Assembly: GCF_029814935.1 (NCBI RefSeq)
Contig: NZ_CP104582.1
Location: 2,108,001 to 2,172,000 of the forward strand
Length of the DNA stretch: 64,000 nt
Origin: Pseudomonas sp. GD03919
GTDB taxonomy: Bacteria; Pseudomonadota; Gammaproteobacteria; Pseudomonadales; Pseudomonadaceae
Direction: 5' to 3'
Below are positions 21,861 through 43,569 of the stretch, piece by piece. A program made the position numbers and the translations under genes. Each line of letters starts with the position of its first letter. Position 1 is the first letter of the stretch. The notes under the pieces are model-generated. The model searched no databases. It saw nothing but the letters and a program-made list of their open reading frames with translations, and was not told the DNA's origin.

Positions 21861-21876
21861 TTTCTGTCGTTTGCGT

Positions 21877-22273: not shown

Positions 22274-22284
22274 CGCGTTTCTCC

Positions 22285-28074: not shown

Positions 28075-28155
28075 TTCGGCTTCCCCTGCATCCCATATCT
28101 TGGGAAACTGTCGAATGTGGTTAAGACCCAACATCGATGTTTCCAAGGTTTCCAA

Positions 28156-28863: not shown

Positions 28864-29458
28864 GCCGGCACTAATCTCGATGTAATTTTCGCAGGGCCGA
28901 GTGCATCGCTGTTGATCATGAGTGGACTCACCACCTGACTTCATCAGTACCACCTGACCACAATGCTAGAGGTGAACCGGCCCTATCAATAGCCCCGGCT
29001 TTCCTAGAGACCTTTGGGCCTAATAACTGCCCCCGCACGAGGGCCGCTTGGTCACCAATCAAAGACTGCTTTTGGCCGAGTCCGGTCTATCGCGTCAGGC
29101 TTGAATCGGCCAAAAGCGGCCGGTCGACAATGGTGTGTCCGACCCATTGCTGTCGCTCGCAAAAGCTGATGGACAAGAAGGCGTTGTCTACCCTACAAAG
29201 CCATCAAGTCCCTGTAGGGTGGAAAACTGCGGAGCATTTTCCACCAGTGGTCATCCAGGCTACCGCGCTGAGAATGCGTAGTGATGTATTACGTCCTCAG
29301 CCACAATGTTAATATCAAGCTGCAACATATCGACAGCCGCCTGCTTCAACACATGACATTAATGGAGCTGGGCAGGCTTGAAGTGAATAATAAATTTTAC
29401 AAGCTAAAAAACTAACGAATATATTATATTTCGAGAATCAAAAGGAAATTGATCAGCA
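28864..29458. other. Non-coding stretch with an inverted repeat
   Basis: About 600 bp; GC drops sharply after 29300. A 12-bp perfect inverted repeat, GCTTTTGGCCGA (29068) and TCGGCCAAAAGC (29106), 26-base loop, lies in the middle, without a T-run. No convincing gene. The last 100 bp are AT-rich and hold the promoter of the next cluster. Confidence 0.55.
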
Positions 29459-29821
29459 ATGTTCACTGTTAAAAACTACGGCGTCTCCTTTTCAACAAAA
29501 AAAAGCGACATCGCGCTAACTAATTTCTTCGTGTCATTAGTAGGAGCCGATATTGACTTTCCAATCCGCACTGATAGTGCGAGAAAAATAATAATTGACC
29601 AAGATGAAAAATATATCTATGGCACAGTTATAACCATAAAAAACCAGAAAAAATTCACATCATTAGTAGGGAAAGGAAGCAATCTTGAAATTAAGGTCTC
29701 GGATCTATCAAAACTTGAAAAAATAGCTGAATTCAATTTTTTAATTATCAATAAAAAAATGGCTTTGGGATTTACCAGTATCATCATGGGTCGTGTACCG
29801 CCCCTAATTTTGGATCAATGA
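29459..29821 (+). pseudogene. N-terminal part of an AT-rich gene, possibly RexA-like, frameshifted
   Basis: 120 residues to the stop, but after KKMALG the sense continues in another frame as YQYHHGSCTAPNFGSM and runs straight into the next reading frame (29818-30396). Inserting one base in GGATTTACC (29768-29776) would give one protein of about 312 residues. The region FNFLIINKKMALG...YQYHHGSC has the same layout as phage lambda RexA around its FPSFLFVEGDTIGF stretch. RexA senses phage infection and opens RexB; this identity is inferred only. Low GC marks it as foreign to both transposon and host. Confidence 0.55.
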
Positions 29822-30396
29822 TAACCACGCTTTATAGGCGAAAATTAGAGGCTAAGCGAGATGCAGAGATATTAGCTCTCGGTGGTAGAGATTCCGTACC
29901 AAGAAAACAATTAAAAGCTATTAATAGTCGTTTTTTTCATGGAATTGAATTTGACATGATTGCTCAGTCAAAAGACATTAAAAAAGTTTTAGAAAAATAC
30001 AAATCCATACGTTCTTTCAGATACGAAGTGTCTTCTCTCGAAGCGTCTTTACGTGAAGAGTCGCCGCTGCAAGGCCTAATTGAAAAGGTAAGACATCACG
30101 TACGCTTTGATAGCTCAGTAGATTCAAGTCTGATCATAAGTGGTATTCAAAGTATGATACCTACCATTAAACAAGCAACGGCTAGAGTTGAAGTGCTTGA
30201 CGATCAGGATGAGCCGGTCTCTGTGAAAGTAATGGATGTGCCTGCGAATTTTGGCGAAATGGGCTATGATGATTTCATCAAGAATTTGCTAACATTTAAA
30301 ATGACAGACATTAAAGGCTGTAGTTTGTTTCAAGATCTTAAAGGCAAATGCGAAAAGGATTATAAGCATGTCTTCACAAAAACATCCTCTAACTAA
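29818..30396 (+). pseudogene. C-terminal part of the same frameshifted gene
   Basis: 192 residues as an open frame (MITTLYRRKLEAKRDAEILA), but better explained as the continuation of the gene starting at 29459. It could still be translated on its own from the ATG, which overlaps the upstream stop (ATGA). Helical start, then mixed fold (IRSFRYEVSSLEASLREESP, TIKQATARVEVLDDQDEPVS). No named domain recognised. It overlaps the following small membrane-protein gene by 29 bases. Confidence 0.55.
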
Positions 30397-30484
30397 TAGC
30401 AAGGAATGCTGGACATTTGTTGTGGCGGCGGCAATCACTGCCTTACTCTATGTGGCCCTGATAATCACGATTTCTAAAGAGGTA
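30368..30484 (+). pseudogene. Membrane-protein gene cut by the Tn5563-like end
   Basis: The ATG at 30368 has AAAAGGA ten bases upstream. It encodes 39 residues with one strong membrane helix (WTFVVAAAITALLYVALIIT) and then runs into the transposon's inverted repeat, where the reading continues as vector-like [10 protein letters not shown]. The original gene was longer. A membrane protein encoded after a RexA-like sensor is what lambda rexB would be, so the cluster may be the wreck of a RexAB-type abortive infection system. Confidence 0.6.
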
Positions 30485-30522
30485 GGGGTTTGGGGAGCAA
30501 TGGAACCAAAAACCAACGTAAG
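30485..30522 (+). repeat. Tn5563-like left inverted repeat
   Basis: 38 bp starting GGGGTTTGGGGAGCAATGGA and ending ACGTAAG; exact reverse complement of 36700-36737. It truncates the membrane-protein gene on its left. Confidence 0.95.
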
Positions 30523-30575
30523 CTCTGAATCCCACCGTAAAGGGGCTTTCCGATCTCCAGCTCACCCGCCAGGCA

Positions 30576-30974
30576 TTACTCTCTGATCAGTGCCTCGATG
30601 ATCGGGCAGATCGTTCCGCCGTCTCCCGCATCACATTGCTGCACCAGTTCGCCTAACAGTTGCTGCATGACGACCAAGTCGGCCATCTTCTGCTCGATCA
30701 ACGCGAGCTTGCGTGCAGCCCGTGCTCGCGTTTCGGCACAGGCGCACGACTCATCCAGCGTCAGCAGTCCACCGACTTCCGAGAGCGTGAAACCCAGCGC
30801 CTGAGCCCGCTTGATGAAACGCAGTCGCTTCACCATGTCCACCGGATAGCGCCGATGGCCACCCAAGGGTTTGGCTGGTTCATCCAGCAGCCCGCGTCGC
30901 TGGTAGTAGCGGATCGTCTCGACGTTCACCCCGGCGGCGTCTGCCAGCTTGCCAATGGTCAGCTCTGTGGCCAT
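30576..30974 (-). CDS. merR: MerR mercury-responsive regulator
   Basis: 132 residues from the ATG at 30974 (AAGGAG six bases upstream; a GTG one codon earlier is less well spaced). The N-terminal winged helix (LTIGKLADAAGVNVETIRYYQRRGLL), the dimer helix, and the mercury-binding cysteines are visible: CAC in LDESCACAE, then QQCDAGDGGTICP. The spacing matches MerR. It represses and, with Hg(II), activates the divergent merT promoter by untwisting its 20-bp spacer. Confidence 0.92.
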   Translation of the reverse strand: MATELTIGKLADAAGVNVETIRYYQRRGLLDEPAKPLGGHRRYPVDMVKRLRFIKRAQALGFTLSEVGGLLTLDESCACAETRARAARKLALIEQKMADLVVMQQLLGELVQQCDAGDGGTICPIIEALIRE

Positions 30975-30984
30975 CACTTTCTCC

Positions 30985-31016
30985 TTGATTCCGTACTTTG
31001 GTACGGAGTTTAGAAT
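30985..31016 (+). promoter_or_regulatory. merT promoter and MerR operator
   Basis: A -35 element TTGATT (30985-30990) and a -10 element TAGAAT (31011-31016) are 20 bp apart, the overlong spacer typical of MerR promoters. The palindrome TCCGTAC-TTTG-GTACGGA fills the spacer. Confidence 0.9.
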
Positions 31017-31048
31017 AGCACCTAGGCAATCAGGCTCAGGAGATGGGA

Positions 31049-31399
31049 ATGGGGATGCAACTCACCGGGAAAGGCTCGCTGGTCGCGAGTTCGCTGACCG
31101 CCATCGGTGCGTCGGTGTGCTGTGTCGGGCCACTGGTGCTGTTGGCACTCGGTGTCGGCGGTACGTGGGTGGGCGCTCTGACCATGATGGAGCCACTACG
31201 CCCCCTCTTCATCGGGTTGACTCTACTGTTCCTGGGATTGGCATTCCGCAAGCTCTACCTGGTGCCACAGGTTTGTACGCCAGGTACACCCTGCGCCGAT
31301 CCGCGCACGCTCGTGCGACAGCGACTCGTGTTCTGGATCGTCAGCGTGCTGCTGCTCGGCCTATTGGCCGTGCCGTGGCTCGCCCCGCTGTTCTACTGA
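31049..31399 (+). CDS. merT: Mercuric ion transport protein MerT
   Basis: 116 residues from the ATG at 31049, six bases after AGGAG; ATGs at 31043 and 31055 are alternatives. Three membrane helices; helix 1 holds the vicinal cysteine pair SVCCVGPLVLLALGVGG, and a second pair lies in the loop (QVCTPGTPCADP). It moves Hg(II) from MerP across the inner membrane. There is no merA in the element, so the ion would not be reduced by enzymes encoded here. Confidence 0.92.
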   Translation: MGMQLTGKGSLVASSLTAIGASVCCVGPLVLLALGVGGTWVGALTMMEPLRPLFIGLTLLFLGLAFRKLYLVPQVCTPGTPCADPRTLVRQRLVFWIVSVLLLGLLAVPWLAPLFY

Positions 31400-31411
31400 A
31401 GGAGATTAACC

Positions 31412-31687
31412 ATGCGCAAACTGCTGATCGCCGTGCTTTTCGCCTTGCCCTTCGTGGCGCTGGCGGCTCCCCCGAAAACCGTCACGCTCGACGTGCAGAA
31501 CATGACGTGCGGACTCTGTCCGATCACGGTCAAGAAGTCGCTGGAGAAGGTGTCCGGCGTGAGTGACGTCCAGGTCAATTTCGACCAGAAGACGGCGACC
31601 GTCACCTACGATCCCGATAAGGCCCAGCCCGAGGCACTGACTGAGGCGACCGCGAACGCGGGATACCCCTCCACAGTGCAGAAGTGA
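31412..31687 (+). CDS. merP: Periplasmic mercury-binding protein MerP
   Basis: 91 residues: signal peptide MRKLLIAVLFALPFVALA, then a heavy-metal-associated domain with the metal site NMTCGLCPITVKKSL. Mature size of about 72 residues is typical. It captures Hg(II) in the periplasm and hands it to MerT. GGAG lies 8 bases before the ATG. Confidence 0.93.
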   Translation: MRKLLIAVLFALPFVALAAPPKTVTLDVQNMTCGLCPITVKKSLEKVSGVSDVQVNFDQKTATVTYDPDKAQPEALTEATANAGYPSTVQK

Positions 31688-31694
31688 GGTCACG

Positions 31695-31907
31695 ATGAGC
31701 GCCATTGTCCTTGAGTCCGTGCTGACTTGCCCGCGCTGCGGCTTCGCCAAGCCGGAAACCATGCCCACGGACGCCTGCCAGTTCTATTACGAGTGCAGCA
31801 ACTGCAAGGCGCTGCTGCGCCCCAACCCAGGGGATTGCTGCGTTTTCTGTTCGTTCGGCTCGGTGAAGTGCCCGCCGATCCAGCAGCAGCTTGGGTGTTG
31901 CTCATAG
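31695..31907 (+). CDS. GDCCVxC-domain protein of mer module
   Basis: 70 residues with ten cysteines, including CPRCG and the name-giving GDCCVFCSFGSVKCPP. No membrane helix. Such small cysteine-rich proteins are common downstream of merP in partial mer operons. Probably binds mercury or another soft metal in the cytoplasm; the role is inferred. Confidence 0.85.
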   Translation: MSAIVLESVLTCPRCGFAKPETMPTDACQFYYECSNCKALLRPNPGDCCVFCSFGSVKCPPIQQQLGCCS

Positions 31908-31919
31908 CGTTTAGGGGGA

Positions 31920-34913
31920 TCACAGGTCGTCGTCTGGATTACGCAGTGGCCGCAGCTCGCCGCGCGCAACTTCTTCCGGTACCGCAAAGGAATACCGCCC
32001 GAGCATGTTGATGTGCTCGTAGATCAGCGGCGATAGCCGGGCCAAATCCTCTTCCAGCACTGGATAGCCGTGCTGCTTGAGCCGTTCCACGGCCGCCGTC
32101 ATGTAGAGGGTGTTCCACAGCACGATGATGTTCACCACCAGGCCCAGAGCACCGAGCTGGTCTTCCTGGCCTTCGCGGTAGCGCTGGCGGAGCTCGCCGC
32201 GTTTGCCGTGGAACACGGCGCGGGCCAGGCTGTGCCGGCCTTCGCCTCGGTTCAACTGGGTCAGGGTGGCGCGGCGCTTGGACTCGTCGTCGATATAGGT
32301 CAACGTGTGCAGAGTCTTTTCGATCCGCCCGAATTCGGCCAGCGCCTGGGCCAGCCGGGTGGGTCTATCTCCCGTTTGCAGCGTGCGCATGATGCCAGTC
32401 GCCGGCACCCGGCCGAGTTTGAGCGAGCCGGCCAGGCGCAGCAGGTCGTCCCAGTGCTCGGCGATCAGGTCGAGTTTGACCGACTGGCGGGCCAGCCCGT
32501 TGAGCTTGCCGTAGTCCGCGTCCGGGCGCGTGCGCCAGAAGCGGGTACCGCCGACATCGGCCAGCCGCGGACTGAAGTGGTAGCCAAGTAGGCGGAAGAG
32601 CCCGAACACCACATCGCTGTAGGCCCCGGTGTCGGTCATGATTTGCGTCGGCTGCAACTCGGTCTGCTGTTCCAGCACGACCGCCAGCAACACCAGGCTG
32701 TCGCGCAGCGTGCCGGGCACGGTGATGGCGTTGAGGCCGGAGAATTGGTCGGAAATCAGGTTGTACCAGGTGACACCCCGGCCGGTGCCGAAATACTTCG
32801 GATTGGGGCCGGCATGCACGGTGCGCACCGGTACGACGAAGCGCATGCCATCGGCGGAGGCGACCTCGCCGCCACCCCAGACTTGGGCCAGTTCCAGTTG
32901 GCTTTGCGCTCCGACCAGGATGGCGTTAGCCGCTGACAGGGTGTCGTCGCGGATATAATTCTGGCTGACCCAGGACAGCCGGTCACGGCGCAGCGCCGGG
33001 TTGTCGGTGCGGATCAAGGGCTCCAGGCCGGTGTTGCAGGCCCCGCCCAACAGCACCGCGCAGAGGCTGGTGACCAGGTTGTCGGCGCGTGCATTGCGTT
33101 CGGAGACATGGGTGAAGGCCTCGGAAAAGCCAGTGCGGGCGGCGATTTCCAAGAGGATTTCCGGCAGATCGACACGCGGCATCAGGTCAGACACGGCCGC
33201 CCGCAGTTGCAGCAACGAGCAGGGCTCGTCCAGCTTGTCCAGCGCCCCGAGCGACAGTTCGGTCTTGCCCTCGGTGTTCTCGCTCAGTTGAATCGCCGGG
33301 TTGTCGGGCAGGCGCGCGGCTACTGCCAGCCAGGTTGCATCCAGCTCGACGGACAAGGCGTCCAGGGTGGTTTTGGCGTCGATGGTCAGGCCCAGTGACC
33401 GGCAGATGATCGGTCGCGCCGCCAGCCATTCGGCACCGTCGAGCAGGCCAAGGCGCGGGTCGGCATAGCGCCAACTGGGCGAGACGAAGACATCGCGGCG
33501 GCGCAGGGCCGTGCGCAGCGCATCGAGCGTGCAGAACACATAGGCACCCATGTCGAGGGAGCCATCTTCGCGGGTGATGTGCTTCTGCCAAGCCTTGGCC
33601 ACGATCTCCTGCGGCGCGTCATCCTCTGGCTTCCGGCGCGGCAGGTTCAGTTGCAGCCACTCCAGACTAGCCGCCACGCCCTTGCCGGCCGGGCTGAAGC
33701 CGAAGCGGATGTGCTTGAGCAGGTCGGGCAGGAAGCGGCGCACGCTGCGGTAGCGCGCTTCCAATGCAAGAAAATAGACGTCATCTACCGGGCGGATCAG
33801 CGCGTTGACCTCTTCCAGGGCCTTTTCCAGGGTGGTCCTCGGCAGGTCGTTGAACAGCCGGGCGCGCACGTTGTCATCGCTGATCGAGCTGTCCAGCACG
33901 ACCTTGCACGCGGCGGCGAGCGTCGCGGCCGACCGATCCAGGTCTTTCAGGCTGCGCATGCGGGCTTTCTTGTCGGCCTTCTCCGCGTTGCTGAACAGGT
34001 CGCGCAGCAAGGCCTCCAGGACTTCCAGTGCGTCGTCGTGCGCAGTCGCCTCCAGGCAGAGTGCGAAGGCCACCAGTGTCGCCATCCGCCGCGACGCCGG
34101 CAGCCGATTAATCGCGGTGACCTTGGCCGTGTTGGCGAAGCGGGCCAGGGCGGCGATACGGCTGGGAGGGATGTGCGCCGCCGCCGGCAAGGTGATGCCG
34201 ATGCCGCGCACGTCATCGAGCCGGCGCAGTGCCCGAATCAACGCGGGGCCACTGACCATGACCGGGCCGGAGCGCAATTGATCCAGCCGGGAGCTGCGGT
34301 TGCCTTCGGCCACCGTCAGCAAGTCTTGCAGTTGCAATCGCTGTTCCTCAGTCACGCTGCGGCCCAGCGTAAACCAGAGGCGTTCTTCGACCCGACTGCG
34401 CAACTGGGCGATAAAGCGCTCTAGTTGAGACACACCAGGCAGGAGGACTTTCTGTGTGAACAGCCACGAGGTGGCTCGCTCAAACAGCACTCCCGGCCGG
34501 TCGGTGCCCGTCCAGCAGAGGGCATACAGCCAGCGGCTCAAGCGAAAGCCGATGCCCGGATCGGTGAAATGACGATAGCCAAAGCGGTTCTGAATATCGG
34601 TGGCATGTATCCAGCGGCGATGATCGCTATAGCGCTGGAGGCAGTCGGGGTCTGGAATCGCCAGTTGTCGGCAAAGCACCTGCAGGACTTCCACCGGCAC
34701 GGCGGCGGGCTTGTCCGGCAGAACGCCAACGAAGCGGACGGTGGTCAGCAGAACGGCATAACCCAGACGGTTATGGCTACCCCGCAGCACCTGGATGGCT
34801 TCACGGTCTTCATCGCTCAGGTGGAAGTAACGTTCCAGCTCTTCACGGCTGGGCGAATCAACATAGCGGCCAAAACCGTCGCGTTGCTCTTGAGTCAGAA
34901 AACCGACCGGCAT
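31920..34913 (-). CDS. tnpA: Tn3-family transposase TnpA
   Basis: 997 residues, full Tn3 TnpA length. N-terminal DNA-binding part (MPVGFLTQEQRDGFGRYVDS), C-terminal DDE catalytic part including MTDTGAYSDVVFGLFRLLGY (Asp) and the terminal NIIVLWNTLYMTAAVERLKQ (Glu region WNT), all uninterrupted. Acts on the 38-bp ends by replicative transposition and leaves cointegrates. It can also mobilise the MITE and the whole composite. Stop lies 12 bases from the convergent GDCCVxC gene. Confidence 0.96.
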   Translation of the reverse strand: MPVGFLTQEQRDGFGRYVDSPSREELERYFHLSDEDREAIQVLRGSHNRLGYAVLLTTVRFVGVLPDKPAAVPVEVLQVLCRQLAIPDPDCLQRYSDHRRWIHATDIQNRFGYRHFTDPGIGFRLSRWLYALCWTGTDRPGVLFERATSWLFTQKVLLPGVSQLERFIAQLRSRVEERLWFTLGRSVTEEQRLQLQDLLTVAEGNRSSRLDQLRSGPVMVSGPALIRALRRLDDVRGIGITLPAAAHIPPSRIAALARFANTAKVTAINRLPASRRMATLVAFALCLEATAHDDALEVLEALLRDLFSNAEKADKKARMRSLKDLDRSAATLAAACKVVLDSSISDDNVRARLFNDLPRTTLEKALEEVNALIRPVDDVYFLALEARYRSVRRFLPDLLKHIRFGFSPAGKGVAASLEWLQLNLPRRKPEDDAPQEIVAKAWQKHITREDGSLDMGAYVFCTLDALRTALRRRDVFVSPSWRYADPRLGLLDGAEWLAARPIICRSLGLTIDAKTTLDALSVELDATWLAVAARLPDNPAIQLSENTEGKTELSLGALDKLDEPCSLLQLRAAVSDLMPRVDLPEILLEIAARTGFSEAFTHVSERNARADNLVTSLCAVLLGGACNTGLEPLIRTDNPALRRDRLSWVSQNYIRDDTLSAANAILVGAQSQLELAQVWGGGEVASADGMRFVVPVRTVHAGPNPKYFGTGRGVTWYNLISDQFSGLNAITVPGTLRDSLVLLAVVLEQQTELQPTQIMTDTGAYSDVVFGLFRLLGYHFSPRLADVGGTRFWRTRPDADYGKLNGLARQSVKLDLIAEHWDDLLRLAGSLKLGRVPATGIMRTLQTGDRPTRLAQALAEFGRIEKTLHTLTYIDDESKRRATLTQLNRGEGRHSLARAVFHGKRGELRQRYREGQEDQLGALGLVVNIIVLWNTLYMTAAVERLKQHGYPVLEEDLARLSPLIYEHINMLGRYSFAVPEEVARGELRPLRNPDDDL

Positions 34914-34916
34914 TGA

Positions 34917-35327
34917 TCACAGCACCTCGACGCAGAACACGGCGGGCGTGACGATCCGCGTGCGTTCGATGTGCCCGCGTTGCAGCAGGCCGGCGCGGCG
35001 ATCACCGGTTACCAGGTAGTCCGCATCGCCCGCCAAGGCCATGGCCAGCAAAAACGAGTCATCCGGATCATCGGCTTCGACCTCGATGGTCAGGCGCTCC
35101 AGTACCACAGCCCGTTGCAGGTTATTGATCATGGCGCCCACCTTGGCGGGCTGTAGGATGGCCTGAAGCTTGGGATAGCGGCTGGCTCGACGAATTTCAT
35201 CGAGTTGCATCCGCGAGGTCACCACCTCGAAACGCGCCGCCCGCCAGGCACGGTAGATCGCATCGGGCGCGCCATGTGGCGAGATCAGGGCGCTGAACAG
35301 GATGTTGGTATCCAACACGACCCGCAT
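34917..35327 (-). CDS. PIN-domain toxin of the transposon
   Basis: 136 residues. PIN nuclease acids are visible: VVLDTNILFSALI (Asp), the middle glutamate in SRMQLDEIRRAS, and DPDDSFLLAMALAGDADYLVTGD (Asp pair). COG1569-type toxins cut RNA. It is encoded directly before tnpA on the same strand, with one base shared with the antitoxin's stop. This pair is a regular part of several Tn3-family transposition modules, Tn5563 among them. Confidence 0.88.
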   Translation of the reverse strand: MRVVLDTNILFSALISPHGAPDAIYRAWRAARFEVVTSRMQLDEIRRASRYPKLQAILQPAKVGAMINNLQRAVVLERLTIEVEADDPDDSFLLAMALAGDADYLVTGDRRAGLLQRGHIERTRIVTPAVFCVEVL

Positions 35328-35566
35328 CAGCGCTTACGTGCCCAGTCGAGCGCTTCGTCAACCGCGTTGGTCAATTCTGCCTCACTCAGATGGGCGTTAG
35401 CGGCCTTGGCCTGCTCAGCGCTCAGCTCCAGGATGTGTGCCCGTACCGCTTCTTCGATGAAGCGCGACAGGTCGCCCTTACGGCCGCCGCCCTGGCTGGC
35501 CAGAAACATCCGAAGCGACTGGTCGGTGTCGGCCGAGACGGCGACATTCCAGCGAATGGTATTCAT
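35327..35566 (-). CDS. RHH-type antitoxin
   Basis: 79 residues: a ribbon-helix-helix-like start (TIRWNVAVSADTDQSLRMFL), then GRKGDLSRFIEEAVRAHILE and an acidic C-terminal tail that would cover the toxin. It probably represses the promoter in the 200-bp res region shared with tnpR. One-base overlap with the PIN gene. Confidence 0.85.
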   Translation of the reverse strand: MNTIRWNVAVSADTDQSLRMFLASQGGGRKGDLSRFIEEAVRAHILELSAEQAKAANAHLSEAELTNAVDEALDWARKR

Positions 35567-35767
35567 AGCGTTCTCCGCTAATAGGTGTTTGTGTGTTTAT
35601 ACGCCAATCACAAAGGGCGATGCAATGGTTCGACAAAACGAAGGTTTTGCCGAACTCTATCGAGGAATGGCTCGGTTCGTTAAGCTCCCCGCGCTACGGT
35701 TCAAATAACTGGTATGCTTAATCAAAGTTCAACTATTACTAACGTAGTCGAGTAAACAGTACTTTTG
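35567..35767. promoter_or_regulatory. res region with divergent promoters
   Basis: The 200 bp between the antitoxin and tnpR genes become AT-rich (ATAACTGGTATGCTTAATCA) and hold several palindromic half sites. The best is the 30-bp site at 35627-35656. This is the expected place of the resolution site and of promoters for both directions. Confidence 0.7.
35627..35656. other. res crossover subsite candidate
   Basis: GGTTCGACAAAACGAAGG followed by TTTTGCCGAACT: half sites GTTCG.CAAAAC and GTTTTG.CGAAC face each other. The same site, 26/30 identical, is in the MITE at 23303. Confidence 0.7.
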
Positions 35768-36697
35768 ATGAAGATCGGTTATGCGCGAGTGAGCACTCGG
35801 GATCAGAAAGCCGACCTACAAGTCGATGCCCTGAAACAGGCCGGGTGCGAACGCATCTACCAAGACATCGCCAGCGGCGCGAAAAGCGCCCGGCCGGAGT
35901 TGGACAAACTGCTGGCCAACGTGCGGCCGGGTGATGCCGTGGTGATCTGGAAGCTGGATCGCCTTGGGCGTTCCCTCAAGCACCTGGTCGAGTTGGTCGG
36001 CGAGCTGGCAGAGCGCAAGGTCGGCTTACAGAGCCTGAATGACCCCATCGACACCACCCACGCCCAAGGCCGCCTGGTGTTCAACCTGTTCGCCTCGCTG
36101 GCGGAGTTCGAGCGCGAGCTGATCCGCGAGCGGACTCAGGCGGGTCTGTCGGCCGCACGGGCGCGTGGCCGGATCGGTGGCCGTCCCAAGGGCCTGCCAG
36201 CCAAGGCTGAGGCCACCGCCATGGCGGCCGAAACCCTCTACCGCGAAGGTCGCCTGAGCGTCAGCGCGATCGGCGAGAAGCTGCACATCTCCAAGAGCAC
36301 GCTGTACAGCTACCTGCGCCACCGTGGTGTCGAGATCGGCGCGTACCAGAAGAGCGCCAGGTCACGCGACCAGCAGCCTTCGGCCGCGTCGCCGGCAGAG
36401 CCGCCCGCCGCCGAGCGGGTGGCCACCGTCACCCTGCGCCTCGCGGTGGTGAATAACAGCAAGTTCGTGCGCGGCCGGAAGCGGGCCACGGAGAACATTG
36501 AGCGCTACTGCCTGGAGCCCTATGGCATGAAGCGGCTGGATGCCGGCCACTATGAGTTGACCATTCCGTATCGGAGCGACGATGAGCTGGACAAGAGCGT
36601 GCATGACCTGCTGACCGAGATCAGCCAGGAGGCCGACATGCGCAACTGTTTTGTCGAGATGGGCGCCTGGGAAGAAGACACCGAAAAGCGTTGGTAG
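35768..36697 (+). CDS. tnpR: Serine recombinase / resolvase TnpR, long form
   Basis: 309 residues from the ATG at 35768. The catalytic serine is in GYARVSTRDQ, followed by KLDRLGRSLKHLVELV and the E-helix region LVFNLFASLAEFERELIRER; the helix-turn-helix (LSVSAIGEKLHISKSTLYSY) ends near residue 190. An extra 110-residue C-terminal domain (VATVTLRLAVVNNSKFVRGR ... MGAWEEDTEKRW) is not found in Tn3/Tn21 resolvases (about 185 residues) and is typical of the Tn5563 group. Resolves cointegrates at res. Confidence 0.92.
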   Translation: MKIGYARVSTRDQKADLQVDALKQAGCERIYQDIASGAKSARPELDKLLANVRPGDAVVIWKLDRLGRSLKHLVELVGELAERKVGLQSLNDPIDTTHAQGRLVFNLFASLAEFERELIRERTQAGLSAARARGRIGGRPKGLPAKAEATAMAAETLYREGRLSVSAIGEKLHISKSTLYSYLRHRGVEIGAYQKSARSRDQQPSAASPAEPPAAERVATVTLRLAVVNNSKFVRGRKRATENIERYCLEPYGMKRLDAGHYELTIPYRSDDELDKSVHDLLTEISQEADMRNCFVEMGAWEEDTEKRW

Positions 36698-36699
36698 GG

Positions 36700-36737
36700 C
36701 TTACGTTGGTTTTTGGTTCCATTGCTCCCCAAACCCC
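36700..36737 (-). repeat. Right inverted repeat, shared by transposon and composite
   Basis: 38 bp, begins CTTACGTTGGTTTTTGGTTC on the plus strand. It pairs perfectly with 30485-30522 and with one mismatch with 23146-23183, so TnpA can use either left end. Confidence 0.95.
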
Positions 36738-36742
36738 AACAG
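36738..36742. repeat. Target-site duplication AACAG, right copy
   Basis: Matches 23141-23145. It lies within cydB codons and shows the precise insertion point. Confidence 0.9.
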
Positions 36743-37021
36743 CACCAGTAACATGGCCCAGTACAGCCCGGAGAAGGCCACCGCGTAGACCATCGGCCAG
36801 GCGGCGAACAGCGCGCCGCCAGCGGTGATGAACCACACCTGGTTGCCGTCCCAGTGCGGGGCGATGGTGTTGATGGCGACGCGACGCTCGTTGTCGGTCT
36901 TGCCGACGAAGGGCATCAGCGCCATGGCGCCCATGTCGAAGCCATCGGTGAGGGCGAAACCGATCAGCAGCACGCCGATCAGCACCCACCAGACGAGTTT
37001 CAGGGTTTCGTAGTCGAACAT
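36738..37021 (-). pseudogene. cydB: cydB, N-terminal quarter, split by transposon
   Basis: [20 protein letters not shown] through [20 protein letters not shown] and [10 protein letters not shown], then into the transposon end. It contains the first two membrane helices and the conserved [11 protein letters not shown] and WDGNQVW motifs of subunit II. A truncated product would read 10 more residues into the inverted repeat. Its start is 10 bases after the cydA stop. Confidence 0.93.
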
Positions 37022-37031: not shown

Positions 37032-38597
37032 TCAGGCGTGGGCCGGCTGCTGTTGCTCGAAGTGGTAGCGTCCGCTGTGCAGGCTCGATGGGCCAAGGCG
37101 GGCGAACTTGATCATCAGGTACATCTCTACCACCAGCAGCAGGCTGTAGAAGGCGATCAGAGCGATCAGCGAACCCCAGACGTCACCGGCCGACAGGCTG
37201 GAGGCAGACAGATGGGTCGGCAGCACTTCACCGATCGACCAGGGCTGGCGTCCGTGTTCAGCGACGTACCAGCCGGTCTGCGCGGCGATCCAGGGCAGTG
37301 GCAGGCTCCACAGCGCCCACTTGAGCAGCCAGGGTTTGCTTTCTTCGTTCTTCTTCGCCGAGGCCCAGAAGGCGCAGGCGAACAGCGCCAGCATGAGGAA
37401 GCCGCTGGCGACCATGATGCGGAAGGTCCAGAACAGACTGAATACGTTGGGAATGGTGTCCAGCGCCGCCTGCTTGATCTGCGCCTCGCTGGCATCGACC
37501 ACGTTCGCCGTGTACTTCTTCAGCAGCAGGCCATAACCCAGGTCGCTCTTCACCTCGTTGAAGGCGGCGATGGTCTCGGCCGACTTGTCGCCGCCACGCA
37601 GGCGCTCCAGCAGGCCATAAGCGATCATGCCGGTGCGGATGCGCGCCTCGTGCTCGATGAGCAGGTCCTTGATGCCCTTGACCTCCTTGTCCAGCGAACG
37701 GGTGGCGATCAGGCCCAGGGCGTAGGGGATCTTCACCGCGTAGTCAGTGCGTTGCTCCTGCTGATTGGGCAGGCCGAACAGGGTGAAGCCGGCCGGTGCC
37801 GGATGGGTGTCCCATTCGGCCTCGATGGCGGCCAGCTTGGTCTTCTGTACGTCACCGATCTCGTAACCGGACTCGTCGCCGAGGATGATCACCGAGAGAA
37901 TCGAGGCCAGACCGAAGGCCGAGGCGATGGCGAAGGAGCGACGGGCGAAACCCTGATCGTGTTTCTTCAGCAGGTAGTAGCTGGAGATGGCCAGGACGAA
38001 GATCGAACCGGTGACATAGCCCGCCGCCACGGTATGCACGAACTTGACCTGCGCCACCGGGTTGAACAGCAGGGCACCGAAATCGGTCAGTTCCATGCGC
38101 ATGGTCTCGAAGTTGAACTCGGCACCCACCGGGTTCTGCATCCAGCCATTGGCGATGAGGATCCACAGCGCCGAAAGGTTCGAGCCAATTGCCACCAGCC
38201 AGGTCACGGTCAGGTGCTGCAGCTTGCTTAGGCGGTCCCAGCCGAAGAAGAACAGGCCGATGAAGGTGGATTCGAGGAAGAACGCCATCAGCCCCTCGAT
38301 GGCCAGCGGCGCACCGAAGATGTCACCGACATAGTGGCTGTAGTAGGCCCAGTTGGTGCCGAACTGGAACTCCATGGTCAGCCCGGTGGTGACGCCCAGG
38401 GCGAAGTTGATGCCGAACAGCTTGCCCCAGAACTTGACCATGTCCTTGTAGACCTGTTTGCCGGTCATCACGTAGACCGACTCCATGATTGCCAGGAGGA
38501 AGGCCAGGCCCAGGGTCAGGGGGACGAAGATGAAGTGATACATCGCTGTCATGGCGAACTGCAGGCGTGACAGGTCGACGACTGATTCCGAGATCAT
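37032..38597 (-). CDS. cydA: Cytochrome bd-I oxidase subunit I
   Basis: 521 residues with the long Q-loop of the E. coli-like bd-I type, unlike the shorter CioA of P. aeruginosa. Haem ligands are visible: His in [12 protein letters not shown], the Met/His pair further on, GRQPW-type motif [15 protein letters not shown], and GWYVAE. It oxidises ubiquinol and reduces oxygen with high affinity and is resistant to sulfide, cyanide and NO in related enzymes. Its ATG overlaps the cydP stop by four bases. With cydB broken the complex cannot form from this locus. Confidence 0.96.
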
Positions 38598-38809
38598 CTC
38601 GGTGTCCCCTCGGTAGTGACAGAAGGCGGGGTGGCGGGCTTGCCGAGCAGGTGCGTTTCGATACGCTGCTGGCCGTCCCTGGGAACGGTGGGTTCGTTGA
38701 ACCAGATGGCCTTGATGCCGAGCAGCAAGGTCAGCTTGATCAGCAGGACCACGGCTATCTCGCGGACCAGCGGGATTCGCCAGGGGGAGGTGGGGGTGCG
38801 TTCGGGCAT
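38594..38809 (-). CDS. cydP: Cytochrome bd accessory small subunit CydP
   Basis: 71 residues with one membrane helix ([20 protein letters not shown]) and the FNEPTVP motif after it, the pattern of the CydP proteins encoded before cydA in proteobacteria. Function not established; likely assembly of the oxidase. It is the first gene of the cyd operon; two regulatory sites lie 75-115 bp upstream. Confidence 0.85.
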
Positions 38810-38882: not shown

Positions 38883-38898
38883 GTACCCGGGGGAGTAT
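38883..38898. promoter_or_regulatory. CsoR/CstR-type operator before cydP
   Basis: GTACCCGGGGGAGTAT matches 14 of 16 bases with the site before the metallohydrolase gene (42001) and has the same end-AT, G-tract layout as the site at 43013. It overlaps the best -10-like sequence (TATACT on the minus strand). Confidence 0.65.
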
Positions 38899-38911
38899 AT
38901 AGAGGCGGGCA

Positions 38912-38925
38912 TTGATGCAGATCAG
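38912..38925. promoter_or_regulatory. Anr/Fnr-like box before cydP
   Basis: TTGATGCAGATCAG differs by one base from the consensus TTGAT-N4-ATCAA. It lies 103 bp upstream of the cydP start and next to the CsoR-type site, as expected for a bd oxidase induced at low oxygen. Confidence 0.65.
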
Positions 38926-38973
38926 GGGAATGTCGATTTGTAGCAGCTTTGCCCTTTCGAGCCGCCCTGGTGC

Positions 38974-39341
38974 TCAGTCGAATGCCGGCAATGCAGGTGT
39001 CCGCACGTCACGACCGGCTGCCTGCCAGGCTTCAATACCGCCGACCAGGGACACCACGTTGCGATAACCCATGTCTTGCAGGGCGAGTGTGGCCAGGGCC
39101 GAGCGTCCGCTGTTCTTGCAATACAGCACCAGCTTGAGCTCTGGGTCGGCGAGTTGCGGGTCATTGCTCAGCTTGAATTCCAGCAGGCCGCGAGGAATGT
39201 TGATGGCGCCGGGAATGTGTGCGTTGTGGAACTCGTCCGCTTCGCGAACATCGATCAGTAGATCGGCCTGTCGAATGGCGGGTTCGGCTTCCAGCAGGTC
39301 GATTTCGGTGATCTTCGCTTTGGCCGCGACTACCAGGTCAT
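38974..39341 (-). pseudogene. Rhodanese-domain sulfurtransferase, apparent frameshift at start
   Basis: The body is intact: DLVVAAKAKITEIDLLEAEP, LIDVREADEFHNAHIPGAIN, and the active-site loop YCKNSGRSALA with the persulfide cysteine, to FD and stop (about 120 residues). The expected ATG overlaps the sulP stop (ATGA), but it reads M-T-W-stop; the rhodanese frame is shifted by one base. No ATG, GTG or TTG in the right frame lies near. Adding one base after ATGACC would give MTLVVAAK, like relatives. Either a real mutation or a sequence error. It would pass sulfane sulfur to acceptors. Confidence 0.75.
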
Positions 39342-41098
39342 GAGCGCTTTTCGTGGGGGGTTCCTTGCATGGACAGTGGTTGGGAGGAGAGCGCGAGGGC
39401 GAGGTGCTTGAGCGCCTCGAACTGGCTGATGAACACCTGGCCGCCGAAGGTCTGCAGGAAGTCGGAGCGGCGCAGTTGGTCCATCACCGGGCCCTTGACC
39501 TCGGAGAGGTGCAACTGCACGCCGGCCGTCCGCAGGCGCTCGACTATCGTCTGCAGCGAGTCAAGGGCGCTGGCGTCGATCAGATTGACCCCCGAGCACA
39601 TCAGCACCAGGTGGCGCACCTGGGGGCGTGCGGTCACCAGCTCGCCGACGCGTTCTTCGAGATAGCGGGCATTGGGGAAGTACAGGCTTTCATCGACGCG
39701 CAGGGACAGAACGCTGGGTGATTCGATCACGGCAAAGCGCTCGACATTGCGAAAGTGTTCGCTGCCGGGTACTTGGCCGACCACGGCGATATGCGGTCGG
39801 CTGGTGCGCCAGAGAAACAGCAGCAGCGACAGGCCGACACCGAGCAGGATGCCGGTTTCAACGCCGATCAGCAGCACGCCGAGCAGAGTGGCGAGCTGCG
39901 CGGCACCGTCCTGGTGCGAGTAGCGCCAGGTATGGCGCAGCGACTTGAGGTCGACCAGGCTGAGTACGGCGACGATGATGGTGGCCGCCAGCACGGCCTG
40001 CGGCAGGTCGTGCAGCAGGGGCGTCAGCAGCATCAGGCTGAGGCCGATGCCCAAGGCGGTGAATACCCCGGCCATCGGCGTCTGCGCGCCGGCATCGTAA
40101 TTGACCACCGAACGGGCGAAACCGCCGGTCACAGGGAAGCCGCCACTGAAGGATGCGGCGATGTTCGCCGCGCCAAGGCCGAGCAGCTCGTTGTCCGGGT
40201 GGATGCGCTGGCGACGCTTGGCGGCCAGGGTCTGGCCGACGGAGACCGATTCGACGAACCCGACCAGGCTTATAAGCAGCGCCGCCGGCAACAGCTGCAC
40301 GGCCAGGTCGAGATCCAGGGTCGGTAGGGTCAGCCCCGGCAGACCCTGGGGCACCACGCCTACGACTCTCACGCCTGCCTGCTCCAGCTGCAGCAGGGCG
40401 ACAGCGGCGATGGCCGCGATGATCGCCATTATCGGTCCGGCCTTGGCCAGGTTGCTCGCCAGTGGCGCCGACAGACCAAGGCGTTGCAACAGCGGTTTGA
40501 GGCGGGTTCTTGCCCACCACAGCCATGCCAGGCTGAATACGCCGATGAGCAGGGTAGGCCAGTGTGTGCCAGGTAGTGCCTCGATCAGCTGTGGCAGCAA
40601 CTGCGGCAAGTTCTCGCCAGAGGCCGAGACACCGAGCAGGTGCTTGAGCTGGCCGACGGCGATGAGAATGCCTGAGGCGCTGATGAAACCGGACACCACC
40701 GGATGGCTGAGAAAGTTGGCGATGAAGCCCAGGCGCAGCATGGCCATCGCGGCCAGGAGCATGCCGGACAGCAGCGCCAGAAGCATGGCCGCGCCGACGT
40801 ATTGCGGGCTGCCGGCAGGGAACAATGGCGCCAGGCTGGCGGCGGTCATCAGCGACACCACCGCCACCGGGCCGACGGCCAGCGTGCGGCTGGAGCCGAA
40901 CAGGGCATAGGCCAGAAGCGGCAGGATGCTGGCATACAGGCCGGTTACCGGGGGCAGGCCTGCGAGCATGGCGTAGGCCAGGCTCTGTGGAATCAGCATC
41001 AGGGTGACGATCAGCGCGGCTAGGCCATCCTGCGCAGCGCTGCTGCGGTCATAGCGCCGGCCCCAATCCAGGCAGGGCAGCCAGTGACTCCACTTCAT
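39338..41098 (-). CDS. SulP-family anion transporter with STAS domain
   Basis: 586 residues from the ATG at 41098 (GGAG five bases upstream). About ten to twelve membrane helices, with the SulP signatures LMLIPQSLAYAMLAGLPPVT, SFSGGFPVTGGFARSVVNYD, and a C-terminal STAS domain (residues about 455-560, LVLMCSGVNLIDASALDSLQ). It likely carries sulfate, sulfite or bicarbonate. Its place between a persulfide dioxygenase-like enzyme and a rhodanese suggests export of sulfite, but substrate cannot be read from sequence. Four-base overlap with the rhodanese gene. Confidence 0.9.
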   Translation of the reverse strand: MKWSHWLPCLDWGRRYDRSSAAQDGLAALIVTLMLIPQSLAYAMLAGLPPVTGLYASILPLLAYALFGSSRTLAVGPVAVVSLMTAASLAPLFPAGSPQYVGAAMLLALLSGMLLAAMAMLRLGFIANFLSHPVVSGFISASGILIAVGQLKHLLGVSASGENLPQLLPQLIEALPGTHWPTLLIGVFSLAWLWWARTRLKPLLQRLGLSAPLASNLAKAGPIMAIIAAIAAVALLQLEQAGVRVVGVVPQGLPGLTLPTLDLDLAVQLLPAALLISLVGFVESVSVGQTLAAKRRQRIHPDNELLGLGAANIAASFSGGFPVTGGFARSVVNYDAGAQTPMAGVFTALGIGLSLMLLTPLLHDLPQAVLAATIIVAVLSLVDLKSLRHTWRYSHQDGAAQLATLLGVLLIGVETGILLGVGLSLLLFLWRTSRPHIAVVGQVPGSEHFRNVERFAVIESPSVLSLRVDESLYFPNARYLEERVGELVTARPQVRHLVLMCSGVNLIDASALDSLQTIVERLRTAGVQLHLSEVKGPVMDQLRRSDFLQTFGGQVFISQFEALKHLALALSSQPLSMQGTPHEKRS

Positions 41099-41119
41099 GC
41101 TCCGACCCTGGCGCAAGCC

Positions 41120-41983
41120 TTACAGCACATTCAGGGGAATTTTCAGGTAGTGGATGCCGTTGTCTTCGGCCGGCGGCAGCTGTCCAGCACGCATGTTCAC
41201 CTGTACCGAGGGCAGGATCAGGGCAGGCATATCCAGGCCGGCATCGCGTTCGCGGCGCATGGCGACGAAGTCGGCTTCGGCGATGCCCTGGTGCACATGT
41301 ACGTTGTGTGCGCGCTGTTCGGCCACGTTGGTCTGGTAGTGAAAATCATCGCGTCCTGGTGCCTTGTAGTCATGGCACATGAACAGGCGGGTTTCGCCAG
41401 GCAGGGCGAACAGTTTTTGAATCGACCGGAACAGGGTGCTTGCGTCTCCGCCGGGGAAGTCACAGCGGGCAGTGCCGTAGTCAGGCATGAACAGGGTATC
41501 GCCGACGAAGCCGGCATCGCCGATCAGGTAGGTCATACAGGCCGGGGTATGGCCGGGGGTATGCATGGCTTGCGCGCGGATTTCGCCGATATGGAACTCG
41601 TCGCCATCGGCGAACAGCCGATCGAACTGGCTGCCATCGGTGGCGAAATCGCTTCCGGCGTTGAACAGCTTGCCGAAGGTGTTCTGTACCACGGTGATGT
41701 TCTCGCCGATACCCAGCTGGCCGCCAAGCTCGCGCTTGAGGTAGGGCGCGGCCGAGAGGTGGTCAGCATGCACATGGGTCTCGAGCAACCATTCCACCTG
41801 CAGGCCGCGACTCCTCACGTAGGCGATGATGCGATCGGCGCTGTCGCATGAAGTCCGCCCCGAGGCTGGGTCGTAATCCAGAACCGAGTCGACGATGGCG
41901 CAGTGGCGGGTAGCGGGGTCTGCTACCACATAGCTATAGGTGTAGGTGGCGGGATCGAAGAATTCTCTGACATCGGCTTGCAT
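41120..41983 (-). CDS. Metallo-beta-lactamase-fold hydrolase, persulfide dioxygenase-like (Blh type)
   Basis: 287 residues. Metal ligands: THVHADHLSA, HTPGHTPACMTYL, VGDTLFMPDYGTARCDFPGG, and LFMCHDYK. The sequence HADHLSAAPYLKRELGG and DYGTARCDFPGGDA are typical of the persulfide dioxygenase/Blh branch, which turns glutathione persulfide into sulfite. A GAGGAG site lies 7 bases before the ATG, and a CsoR-type operator 18 bp further upstream. First of the operon with sulP and rhodanese. Confidence 0.88.
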   Translation of the reverse strand: MQADVREFFDPATYTYSYVVADPATRHCAIVDSVLDYDPASGRTSCDSADRIIAYVRSRGLQVEWLLETHVHADHLSAAPYLKRELGGQLGIGENITVVQNTFGKLFNAGSDFATDGSQFDRLFADGDEFHIGEIRAQAMHTPGHTPACMTYLIGDAGFVGDTLFMPDYGTARCDFPGGDASTLFRSIQKLFALPGETRLFMCHDYKAPGRDDFHYQTNVAEQRAHNVHVHQGIAEADFVAMRRERDAGLDMPALILPSVQVNMRAGQLPPAEDNGIHYLKIPLNVL

Positions 41984-42000
41984 GAGGGTGCTCCTCGCAT

Positions 42001-42016
42001 ATACCCGTGGGAGTAT
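42001..42016. promoter_or_regulatory. CsoR/CstR-type operator before the metallohydrolase gene
   Basis: ATACCCGTGGGAGTAT, a near-palindrome with a G-tract, 18 bp upstream of the start codon. One of three matching sites in this 4-kb cluster. Confidence 0.7.
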
Positions 42017-42167
42017 TTAGTTGGGAGCAATCGTAACTGTTTTTTGGTTCTATGCTTATATTTAAATAGAATAAAAAATGGAATGCCTTTCAGGTGGGCT
42101 ATAACCGCAGCAGGGCCGGACTCCAGGCGAAAGGCTACGTGACGCTGCGTGCCGCCCTCGAGCGGCA

Positions 42168-42452
42168 TCAGGTGTACTTGGTGAAGATCTCGCGCACACG
42201 CTGCAGCGAGTCCTCGGGGTTCTGCTCTGGGTCGAGCATGGCCTCTTCGATCAGGCAGGTGAGCATCAGGCGATAGGACTTATCCAGCGCGCTTCGGGCG
42301 GCGGAAAACTGCTGAGCGATGGCGGCGCAGTCCTCGCCGCGCCTGATCATCGCCTGGATGCCGCGGATCTGGCCCTCGACCCGGGCCAGGCGCTTGAGCA
42401 TCGCTTGCTGCTGTTCGAGCATGCGTGCTTGCAGGTCGGTACTCTGGGTCAT
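42168..42452 (-). CDS. CsoR/CstR/FrmR-family repressor, probably sulfane-sulfur sensing
   Basis: 94 residues: the all-helical CsoR fold (KRLARVEGQIRGIQAMIRRG, then CAAIAQQFSAARSALDKSYR). Two cysteines, in EDCAAIAQQ and MLTCLIEEA, stand where CstR forms its di- or tetrasulfide link; the His and second ligand of copper-sensing CsoR are not obvious. With the surrounding persulfide genes this favours CstR-type sensing. It overlaps the DUF3365 gene by four bases and would repress its own operon through the site at 43013. Confidence 0.85.
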   Translation of the reverse strand: MTQSTDLQARMLEQQQAMLKRLARVEGQIRGIQAMIRRGEDCAAIAQQFSAARSALDKSYRLMLTCLIEEAMLDPEQNPEDSLQRVREIFTKYT

Positions 42453-42997
42453 GGGGTTTCCTGTGCAAGGGGTCGACTGAGAGTAAAGGCGCCGCGAAGT
42501 TCGCCGACCTGATAACCGCGGGCCTGATCATGTGGATAGTACTGGTCAATGGCTTCTCGTATCTCCGTCTTGATCGCCTTGCCGTGACACGCCAGGCAGG
42601 GTTCGCCAACGGCGATGGCCTGCATGTAGCGATACTGGCCGTCGACCTCTTCACCATGGCGCAGGTCTTTCACCGGCGTACCCGCTGCGGCGGCGCTGGC
42701 GAAGCGTTCGAGCACGGCTCGTTCCCAGGCATCGGGAGCGTTGTCCGGATTGCGTACCTTGAGTGAAGTGCGGCCTACCTGCCAGGCGTGCTGGCTGTGC
42801 TCGCTGGCAATCTGCGGCGCCAGTGACTGGCAGGCCCGTACAGCTGCAGTCGGGCCGCCCTCGGCGCTGGCCTGGCGCACGGTACCTAGCAGCTGTTCGG
42901 CGAACGGCGGGATCTGCGCAGCAGCTTCTTCCTGCCAGAGGGGGGCAGCGTTGACTGTTGTAGAGACGAGCAGGGCGGTGAGCAATAGGGAGCGCAT
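42449..42997 (-). CDS. DUF3365 (Tll0287-like) periplasmic haem protein
   Basis: 182 residues. Signal peptide MRSLLLTALLVSTTVNAAPL, then a helical sensor-like domain (LKVRNPDNAPDAWERAVLER) and a single c-type haem motif EPCLACHGKAIK near the C-terminus. Such proteins are thought to be redox or gas sensors in the periplasm. Together with the repressor gene (four-base overlap) it forms the first operon of the sulfur cluster, preceded by the operator at 43013. Confidence 0.85.
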   Translation of the reverse strand: MRSLLLTALLVSTTVNAAPLWQEEAAAQIPPFAEQLLGTVRQASAEGGPTAAVRACQSLAPQIASEHSQHAWQVGRTSLKVRNPDNAPDAWERAVLERFASAAAAGTPVKDLRHGEEVDGQYRYMQAIAVGEPCLACHGKAIKTEIREAIDQYYPHDQARGYQVGELRGAFTLSRPLAQETP

Positions 42998-43012
42998 TAT
43001 CGGATCTCATAA

Positions 43013-43028
43013 ATACTGGTGGGGGTAT
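43013..43028. promoter_or_regulatory. CsoR/CstR-type operator before the DUF3365-repressor operon
   Basis: ATACTGGTGGGGGTAT, 16 bp upstream of the start codon, agrees with 13 of 16 bases of the site at 42001. It implies autoregulation. Confidence 0.65.
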
Positions 43029-43101: not shown

Positions 43102-43509
43102 TCAATGCTTGGCGCCGTCTGTGGGCAGGGCCAGCAGCTGTTTTTCCTGGTTCCAGTCGAACGGCTCGTCGTTCTCTTCAGCTTCGAAGCGACGCTCGTC
43201 GAGGGCCTGGTAGAGGGCGATTTCTTCGTCCGGCATGAAGTGCAGGCAGTCGCCGCCGAAGAACCACAGCAGGTCGCGCGGTACCAGATGGGCGATCTGC
43301 GGATAGCGATGGAATACCTGGCTGATAAGGTCCTGGCCGAGGTATTGGCTGGACACCGGATCACGCGGCAGTTCGGCGAGCAGTTCGTCGTAGCGCTCGA
43401 GGAACAGGGCGTGGCTGTCGTCGAGCACCTGTTCGGCTTCGCCCAGGGCGACGAGAATATCGCGCAGGTGATTGAGCAGGGCGAGGTGATGTTCGAGATG
43501 GCTGGCCAT
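43102..43509 (-). CDS. PA2817-like conserved hypothetical protein
   Basis: 135 residues from the ATG at 43509. Helical, acidic (HLALLNHLRDILVALGEAEQ, LVPRDLLWFFGGDCLHFMPD, ALDERRFEAEENDEPFDW). It resembles the conserved Pseudomonas protein encoded beside fadE (PA2817 in PAO1 as I recall). No catalytic motif seen; role unknown. The longer frame upstream is not supported by a start site. Confidence 0.75.
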   Translation of the reverse strand: MASHLEHHLALLNHLRDILVALGEAEQVLDDSHALFLERYDELLAELPRDPVSSQYLGQDLISQVFHRYPQIAHLVPRDLLWFFGGDCLHFMPDEEIALYQALDERRFEAEENDEPFDWNQEKQLLALPTDGAKH

Positions 43510-43569
43510 GTTGCAGTGTCCTGAAAGGTAAAACGGGCGCAGGAGTATAGAGCTCCTGGCGCCCGCTGT

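Follow-up and report, generated by a model that had tools for sequence, protein, structure and literature searches.

A predicted CsoR-family regulon joining persulfide removal to a cytochrome bd oxidase in Pseudomonas

Introduction

Which regulator passes a reactive-sulfur signal to the promoter of a cytochrome bd oxidase in Pseudomonas? The bd oxidases withstand sulfide and are sulfide-induced in several bacteria, but few studies have traced the signal from sulfur to their promoters to a dedicated sensor. The question is raised by a 64,000-nt stretch of Pseudomonas sp. GD03919 (NZ_CP104582.1, positions 2,108,001 to 2,172,000; hereafter, the window), in which three similar 16-bp sites stand 5' of the bd oxidase genes cydP-cydA, of an operon led by a persulfide dioxygenase (PDO)-like gene, and of an operon encoding a CsoR/DUF156-family repressor. 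In P. aeruginosa, CIO is reported to confer sulfide tolerance on respiration (PMC10968556).

A predicted CsoR-family regulon joining persulfide removal to the bd oxidase is well supported by the comparisons described here. In the full model, which we regard as likely on the strength of sequence comparison, a repressor released by reactive sulfur would control its own operon, the PDO, SulP transporter and rhodanese operon, and cydP-cydA-cydB. The combination of a specific repressor, a 16-bp operator and its tracking of the repressor among the sampled genomes makes the link between sulfur and the oxidase directly testable in non-pathogenic Pseudomonas.

Three predicted operators and the conservation of one upstream of cydA

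A preliminary description of this DNA had located the three 16-mers (operators 1 to 3; Table 1) exactly, and the minus-strand gene order agrees with its assignment of them to cydP-cydA, the PDO-like operon and the repressor operon. It had also described 13-14 of 16 bases as shared, which holds for operators 1 and 2 (14/16) and operators 2 and 3 (13/16) but not for operators 1 and 3 (11/16). Searching the window with operator 2 at up to three mismatches returned exactly three matches against 0.12 expected, and three were reached in 0 of 100 shuffles. A pattern built from the three sites, which is circular by construction, matched only these three places in the 4.66-Mb genome at zero or one mismatch and 22 further places at two, and the reversed pattern, used as a control, matched 13 places at up to two.

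Relatives place the sites within the palindrome ATACCC-N4-GGGTAT, perfect copies of which precede cstR operons or PDO genes in L057, L066, L071, L072, L078, L080, and L096, among other loci. At five loci with the same gene set (L039, L040, L054, L055, and L056), operator 2 keeps its position and ATACTGGTGGG[GA]GTAT lies ahead of the Tll0287-like gene; the place of operator 3 ahead of the repressor's own operon predicts autoregulation. With up to two mismatches, the palindrome occurs at 90 places in the whole genome, against 59 for the control. Because the looser palindrome is common in the genome, the cydP site alone is unremarkable, and the case is carried by conservation.

In a sample of 398 genomes of the genus, 31 contained the repressor, 57 a window-like cydA, and 12 both. 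The 600 bp 5' of cydA were searched at all 58 loci of the 57 genomes (one genome has two), with shorter upstream sequence at three of the loci counted (L154, 452 bp; L162, 489 bp; L184, 223 bp). The palindrome, with 0-2 of 12 mismatches, was present in all 12 repressor-bearing genomes, starting 214-306 bp before cydA, whereas 0 of the 46 other loci had the operator, the best of them reaching three mismatches (Fisher p = 1.1e-12, ancestry ignored). A narrower first count, covering 400 bp 5' of the extrapolated cydP start at 41 loci, had given 10/12, the misses in G224 and G288 being artefacts of the cut-point. Five cyd sites were known before the palindrome was fixed (the window, G064 = L040, G113 = L039, G133 = L044, and G270 = L055); in a fresh test on the remaining bearers (G148, G177, G224, G288, G317, G369, and G378), the operator was found in 7/7. 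Among control half-sites, 59 permuted versions reached at most 2/12 and 200 random versions at most 9/12 (with 1/46). Conservation of the cydP site in relatives with the cluster had been set beforehand as the comparison that could overturn the proposal, and these counts came out in its favour.

The repressor and its cysteine pair

The repressor belongs to the CsoR/DUF156 family (PF02583, 72.1 bits; cut-off, 22.8), and an alignment of 13 orthologues shows no variation at Cys42 or Cys66. Cys42 lines up with the first cysteine of the solved chains 5fmn, 7mq3, and 6ahx and with a cysteine in 79 of 80 other aligned sequences; the conserved first cysteine of the family marks the start of helix 2. 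In the three solved CsoR-family chains, the last cysteine meets Ala71, and Cys66 falls one residue before the histidine position. The preliminary description had credited the protein with the two cysteines of CstR, and this is correct for the first cysteine only: at the canonical second position stands Ala71, Cys66 lies five residues earlier, and the spacing is 24 residues rather than 29. Across 81 aligned sequences, Cys42 and Cys66 without Cys71 occurred in 27/27 of the Pseudomonas/Stutzerimonas type (the window, L054-L078, and L096), and the canonical arrangement occurred in 6/6 Enterococcus sequences (L097, L099, L111, L114, L116, and L117). The shifted pair raises the question of whether reactive sulfur is read by a single mechanism across CsoR-type sensors or by several.

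As expected of a CstR, the middle ligand position is Leu67 with no histidine, and a CsoR-type palindromic operator precedes sulfur-detoxification genes. We think that the protein works like CstR or ScCsoR and, because its cysteines depart from those of CstR, that it is better named a CstR-like branch of the family. Its gene company, operator, and cysteines together suggest that it senses reactive sulfur. The Cys-x23-Cys arrangement was also seen beyond Pseudomonas, at 14 of the 17 loci L079-L095 (e.g., Rhodoferax, Moraxellaceae, and Zhongshania), and six of these 14 have the palindrome with at most one mismatch within 150 bp upstream of the repressor match.

Of the other explanations, the one that survives best is that the repressor binds these operators but is triggered by a metal, formaldehyde, or another electrophile, as CsoR, RcnR, and FrmR are. 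The CsoR family is reported to sense many ligands (PMC10318464), the cysteine pair differs from that of CstR, and the protein gives weak NCBIfam matches to RicR (36 bits), FrmR (30 bits), and RcnR (26.5 bits). These scores, however, all lie below the cut-offs (175, 133, and 138, respectively). The protein also lacks a copper site, having Cys42-Leu67-Ala71 in place of Cys-His-Cys, and Leu67 likewise occupies the histidine position of FrmR and RcnR. The identified operator-bearing genes and their conserved neighbours are, moreover, mostly concerned with sulfur oxidation or respiration. We therefore consider a non-sulfur trigger unlikely and retain reactive sulfur as the probable signal.

The operator away from the repressor locus

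In near relatives, the repressor, the PDO operon, and the cyd genes form one block, and the cyd site could be a functionless ancestral relic that was inherited with a co-transferred block. Such hitch-hiking is also suggested by G255 (L308), which is labelled as the same species and in which both cydA and the repressor went unmatched: ~60 bp beyond its PA2817 gene lies a 70-bp stretch that shares 97% identity with window positions 21804-21873, on the far side of cydB, as if the block had been gained or lost whole. The 70-bp stretch also matches itself inverted, so the apparent junction may instead be a repeat or terminator. No tRNA was found in window positions 21000-23500, where an edge of the block was sought. 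The small number of independent pairs in the phylogenetic test, given below, likewise leaves room for a relic.

Against a relic, the operator persists where the repressor lies elsewhere in the assembly. In the draft assemblies of G148, G224, G288, and G317, the repressor and cyd are on different contigs, and in G378 they are ~23 kb apart; in all five genomes the operator is retained though the flanks have diverged. In G008, by contrast, where CydA is 94% identical and the repressor is unmatched, the cyd promoter shares the surroundings of the window group (CTGACCTGCATCAA, then GTAACATTAAGACA downstream), the Anr-like box included, but the operator between these flanks is missing and the box-to-TAACAT spacing is 21 rather than 33 bp (12 bp shorter). 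Three genomes nested among the bearers on the CydA tree (G008, G284, and G297) lack both a repressor match and the operator.

The operator also stands ahead of a different oxidase. In a separate cioAB clade (CioA at least 90% identical to that of L050), it was found in 3/3 sample genomes (G012, G014, and G069), and the cioAB of L077 (P. toyotomiensis), which belongs to the same clade, has it too. These cioAB genes lie just downstream of cstR in G012 and L077 (likewise at locus L049), divergent from it in G014 (likewise at locus L050), and on another contig in G069. Two different bd oxidases carry the same predicted operator. Taken together, these observations make hitch-hiking quite improbable. 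Least credible of all, to the point of being negligible, is a chance resemblance of the three sites within G-rich sequence, or their recognition by a different factor; the genome does hold many palindromes at up to two mismatches, but no shuffle of the window gave three matches, the counts of 12/12 and 0/46 stand apart, and permuted half-sites fail.

Ordinary cioA genes were considered as a target of the repressor and found unsupported as such, the operator being present in 0/24 of those from repressor-bearing genomes. Upstream regions were taken for 40 of 49 cioA matches (27/27 in bearers and 13/22 in others); one of the 13 from non-bearers, G017, has a two-mismatch palindrome, ATGCCCGCCCGGGCAT, which we take as chance. 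An RNA element was set aside in view of the palindromic form of the sites, their positions 5' of different genes, and their co-occurrence with a DNA-binding protein.

Proposed mechanism

The sequences establish where the sites lie, that they are conserved, which genes accompany them, and that they occur together with the repressor; beyond that, we infer for the regulon DNA binding, repression, a sulfur signal, cysteine chemistry, and an oxygen input as follows. When reactive sulfur is scarce, the CstR-like protein would occupy the 16-bp operators at the three promoters and repress them. Sulfane sulfur, as persulfide or polysulfide, would modify Cys42 with the assistance of Cys66, and the modified repressor would leave the DNA, so that persulfide-oxidising enzymes and a sulfide-resistant quinol oxidase would be made together. 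The cyd operator lies just after an Anr/FNR-like box, at the expected core promoter, and low oxygen and reactive sulfur would probably both be needed there.

The Anr/FNR consensus is TTGAT-N4-ATCAA. In 10/12 bearers, a box that differs from it at 1-2 of 10 positions precedes the operator by 10-34 bp; in the other two, G378 and G317, the best box of the scan lies downstream of the operator, and in G378 TTGAC-ATCA-GTCAA, with two mismatches, is visible 9 bp before it. At loci without the repressor, a box with 0-2 mismatches lies 260-263 bp before cydA in 10 of the 12 scanned (of 46). Anr boxes have been reported ahead of cioA in Pseudomonas (PMC6588701). These arrangements suggest that low oxygen and reactive sulfur would act together on cyd.

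Several observations weigh against the model. Besides the departure of the cysteine pair from that of CstR, three paralogous CsoR-family matches in the genome could bind similar sites. The cydP operator of the window is among the weaker ones, with two mismatches and a shuffle p of 0.003. In this isolate, moreover, cydB is interrupted, a point absent from the preliminary description, and the cyd branch is for that reason probably not productive here. A search of the window's genome for the DUF442-sulfide:quinone reductase (SQR) fusion found in relatives gave no match, with no positive control. An oxidase operator was found in 15 of the 31 bearers (12 cyd and three cio) and in none of the other 16, which points to the oxidase as a frequent, non-constant member of the putative regulon. 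The assembly of G284 is 86% complete, which weakens its repressor absence. Six of the 12 bearers, the window among them, form one close group with CydA identities of 96-100%. The repressor label needs three changes on a 39-row CydA tree, and the independent pairs, two on well-supported branches and three on all, are concordant (sign test p = 0.5). With so few independent pairs, the association is striking but short of ancestry-corrected proof.

The preliminary description had proposed a single regulon, and the sites, their conservation at cyd, and their tracking of the repressor all sustain this proposal; the part that did not hold is the CstR cysteine pair. Whether the scheme extends further is, in our judgement, about evenly balanced: a distinct proteobacterial CsoR-type branch (Cys-x23-Cys) may govern a portable sulfide-respiration module, in which an SQR fusion, a PDO, and a sulfide-proof quinol oxidase would be co-induced and would respond to low oxygen as well, and in which the oxidase could be swapped (cydPAB or cioAB, in different lineages) through the same operator.

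Comparison with known systems

The nearest known system appears to be ScCsoR of S. coelicolor, a sulfane-sulfur sensor with the 16-bp operator ATACC-n6-GGTAT, which fits the window palindrome; it is reported to repress its own gene and those of a persulfide dioxygenase, a rhodanese, and a sulfite transporter (PMC7533328). A persulfide is reported at its Cys37, and both of its cysteines (37 and 66) are described as needed for the response, but they are 29 residues apart, against 24 in the Pseudomonas repressor (PMC7533328). The accessible text on the ScCsoR circuit mentions no terminal oxidase (PMC7533328); the Pseudomonas set has an oxidase, a SulP transporter, and a Tll0287-like protein, to which relatives add a DUF442-SQR fusion. 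CstR of S. aureus and Enterococcus is likewise a DUF156 repressor with its first cysteine in the same place and reported control over sulfide and persulfide genes (PMC5480029, PMC9405070). The Enterococcus proteins differ in having a cysteine at the canonical last position (6/6 sequences), and the direct targets of S. aureus CstR are reported to amount, most probably, to one operon, cst (PMC5480029). Thermus thermophilus TTHA1953, also of the CsoR family, regulates sulfur oxidation, and its binding to DNA is reportedly lowered by thiol oxidation; its cysteines (Cys39/Cys68) are 29 residues apart, and it is reported to control sox and c-type cytochrome genes that lie at a distance from its own (PMC10318464).

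Outside the CsoR family, E. coli YgaV is, by analogy, a precedent for the control of a bd oxidase by a sulfur sensor. YgaV belongs to the ArsR family, and in Acinetobacter baumannii BigR is a sensor alongside FisR. YgaV is reported to be sulfide-responsive and to repress cytochrome bd oxidase genes without sulfide, but a persulfide dioxygenase operon with a shared operator is not mentioned in the accessible text (PMC11858517). In A. baumannii, sulfide is reported to raise cydAB alongside persulfide-detoxifying genes; one sensor there is FisR, and no CsoR-type operator at cydAB is mentioned in the accessible text (PMC7315123). In Chromobacterium violaceum, the dedicated repressor CioR controls a bd oxidase that protects against sulfide, but CioR is of the MarR family, and of five candidate inducers described, which did not include sulfide, cyanide alone induced (PMC11837568). 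In searches of an open-access library, covered through titles and abstract openings, no paper was found that places a Pseudomonas bd oxidase under a CsoR-family regulator, in line with the novelty claimed in the preliminary description, with YgaV as the precedent in another family. The parts are known; their wiring as repressor, operator, and oxidase in Pseudomonas appears new as far as we found.

Genes of the locus and interruption of cydB

The features of the locus are collected in Table 1. The PDO-like protein scores 396.1 bits against NF040641 (cut-off, 625) and matches profile positions 141-423, leaving the sulfurtransferase half unmatched; the best NCBIfam match of CydA is PRK15097 (911.3 bits; cut-off, 968). 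No in-frame upstream ATG, GTG, or TTG is listed for the rhodanese gene, in which ACG replaces the ATG of relatives (MKSAHDLV or MKTAHDLV), and it may have a non-standard start or be impaired.

Table 1. Positions of operators, genes, and other features in the window
Feature	Position	Strand	Sequence, match, or remark
Operator 1	38883-38898		GTACCCGGGGGAGTAT; starts 89 bp 5' of cydP start and 301 bp 5' of cydA
Operator 2	42001-42016		ATACCCGTGGGAGTAT; 18-33 bp 5' of the ATG of the PDO-like gene
Operator 3	43013-43028		ATACTGGTGGGGGTAT; 16-31 bp 5' of ATG, Tll0287-like/csoR operon
Anr/FNR-like box	38912-38925	minus	CTGAT-CTGC-ATCAA; 13 bp upstream of operator 1 as transcribed
PA2817-family gene	43102-43512	minus	First in minus-strand order, ahead of operator 3
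Tll0287-like protein, CxxCH haem motif	42449-42997	minus	First gene of repressor operon; PF11845, E = 8.8e-25; motif from translation
CsoR/DUF156-family repressor (CstR-like), Cys42 and Cys66	42168-42452	minus	PF02583, E = 5.1e-20
Persulfide dioxygenase-like, metallo-beta-lactamase fold (dioxygenase half of Blh)	41120-41983	minus	NF040641
SulP-family transporter with STAS domain	39338-41101	minus	TIGR00815, 444.8 bits (cut-off, 380.45)
Single-domain rhodanese	38974 to about 39378	minus	PF00581, E = 9.9e-22; 5' end uncertain
cydP, putative small bd oxidase subunit	38594-38809	minus	NF045611, 60.8 bits (cut-off, 29.6)
cydA, bd oxidase subunit I, E. coli type	37032-38597	minus	PF01654, E = 1.4e-174
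cydB, 5' part	36741-37018	minus	PF02322 profile positions 1-91; edge at insertion
cydB, 3' part	22285-23121	minus	PF02322 profile positions 88-301, at G000:C1:2130342-2131145
Tn3-type composite insertion (13.6 kb), splits cydB	23146-36740		Terminal repeats 23146-23188, 30482-30526, and 36696-36740
Transposase-like open reading frame (ORF)	31920-34913		Named by reading translation
Resolvase-like ORF	35765-36697		Named by reading translation

The window strain does not have an intact CydAB, since CydA and CydP are present but CydB is split. An inverted repeat of the insertion ends at 36740, next to the base (36741) at which the 5' part of cydB is broken off, and in L054, L055, L056 (P. alcaliphila JCM 10630), and L071 cydB is spanned by a single match of about 1,080 bases. 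Between the terminal repeats lie ORFs whose translations, on reading, resemble a short-chain dehydrogenase, a sterol-desaturase-like protein, and a Crp/Fnr-like regulator. Elsewhere the genome encodes a second bd oxidase, which is of the cio type and lacks the operator.

Gene content in relatives

The DUF442-SQR fusion is added to the PDO operon in L050, L054, L056-L059, and L061-L065, and it is missing from the operons of the window, L040, L055, and L071, where PDO and sulP adjoin. Another arrangement, in which genes for a rhodanese of a second kind, TauE, and PDO come after cstR, was found in L041, L067-L069, and L072. Between PDO and cstR, L039 carries genes for an octaheme cytochrome of the tetrathionate-reductase family and TsoY- and SLAC1-family genes (L039:8093-12093). 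This cytochrome set is a possible further member of the regulon, the palindrome ATACCCCTGGGGGTAT (L039:12863-12878), at least 0.8 kb before the first called gene of the set, being too distant to count as showing it.

At about position 180 of L061-L063, GTACCC-N4-GGGTAT was seen ~3.3 kb 5' of PDO, in or beside an ORF that precedes transporter-like genes. In the Stutzerimonas cluster of L062, an ArsR-type-looking gene (L062:9470-9787; by eye, perhaps BigR/SqrR-like) lies beside the CsoR-type repressor, and two sulfur sensors are perhaps found together there.

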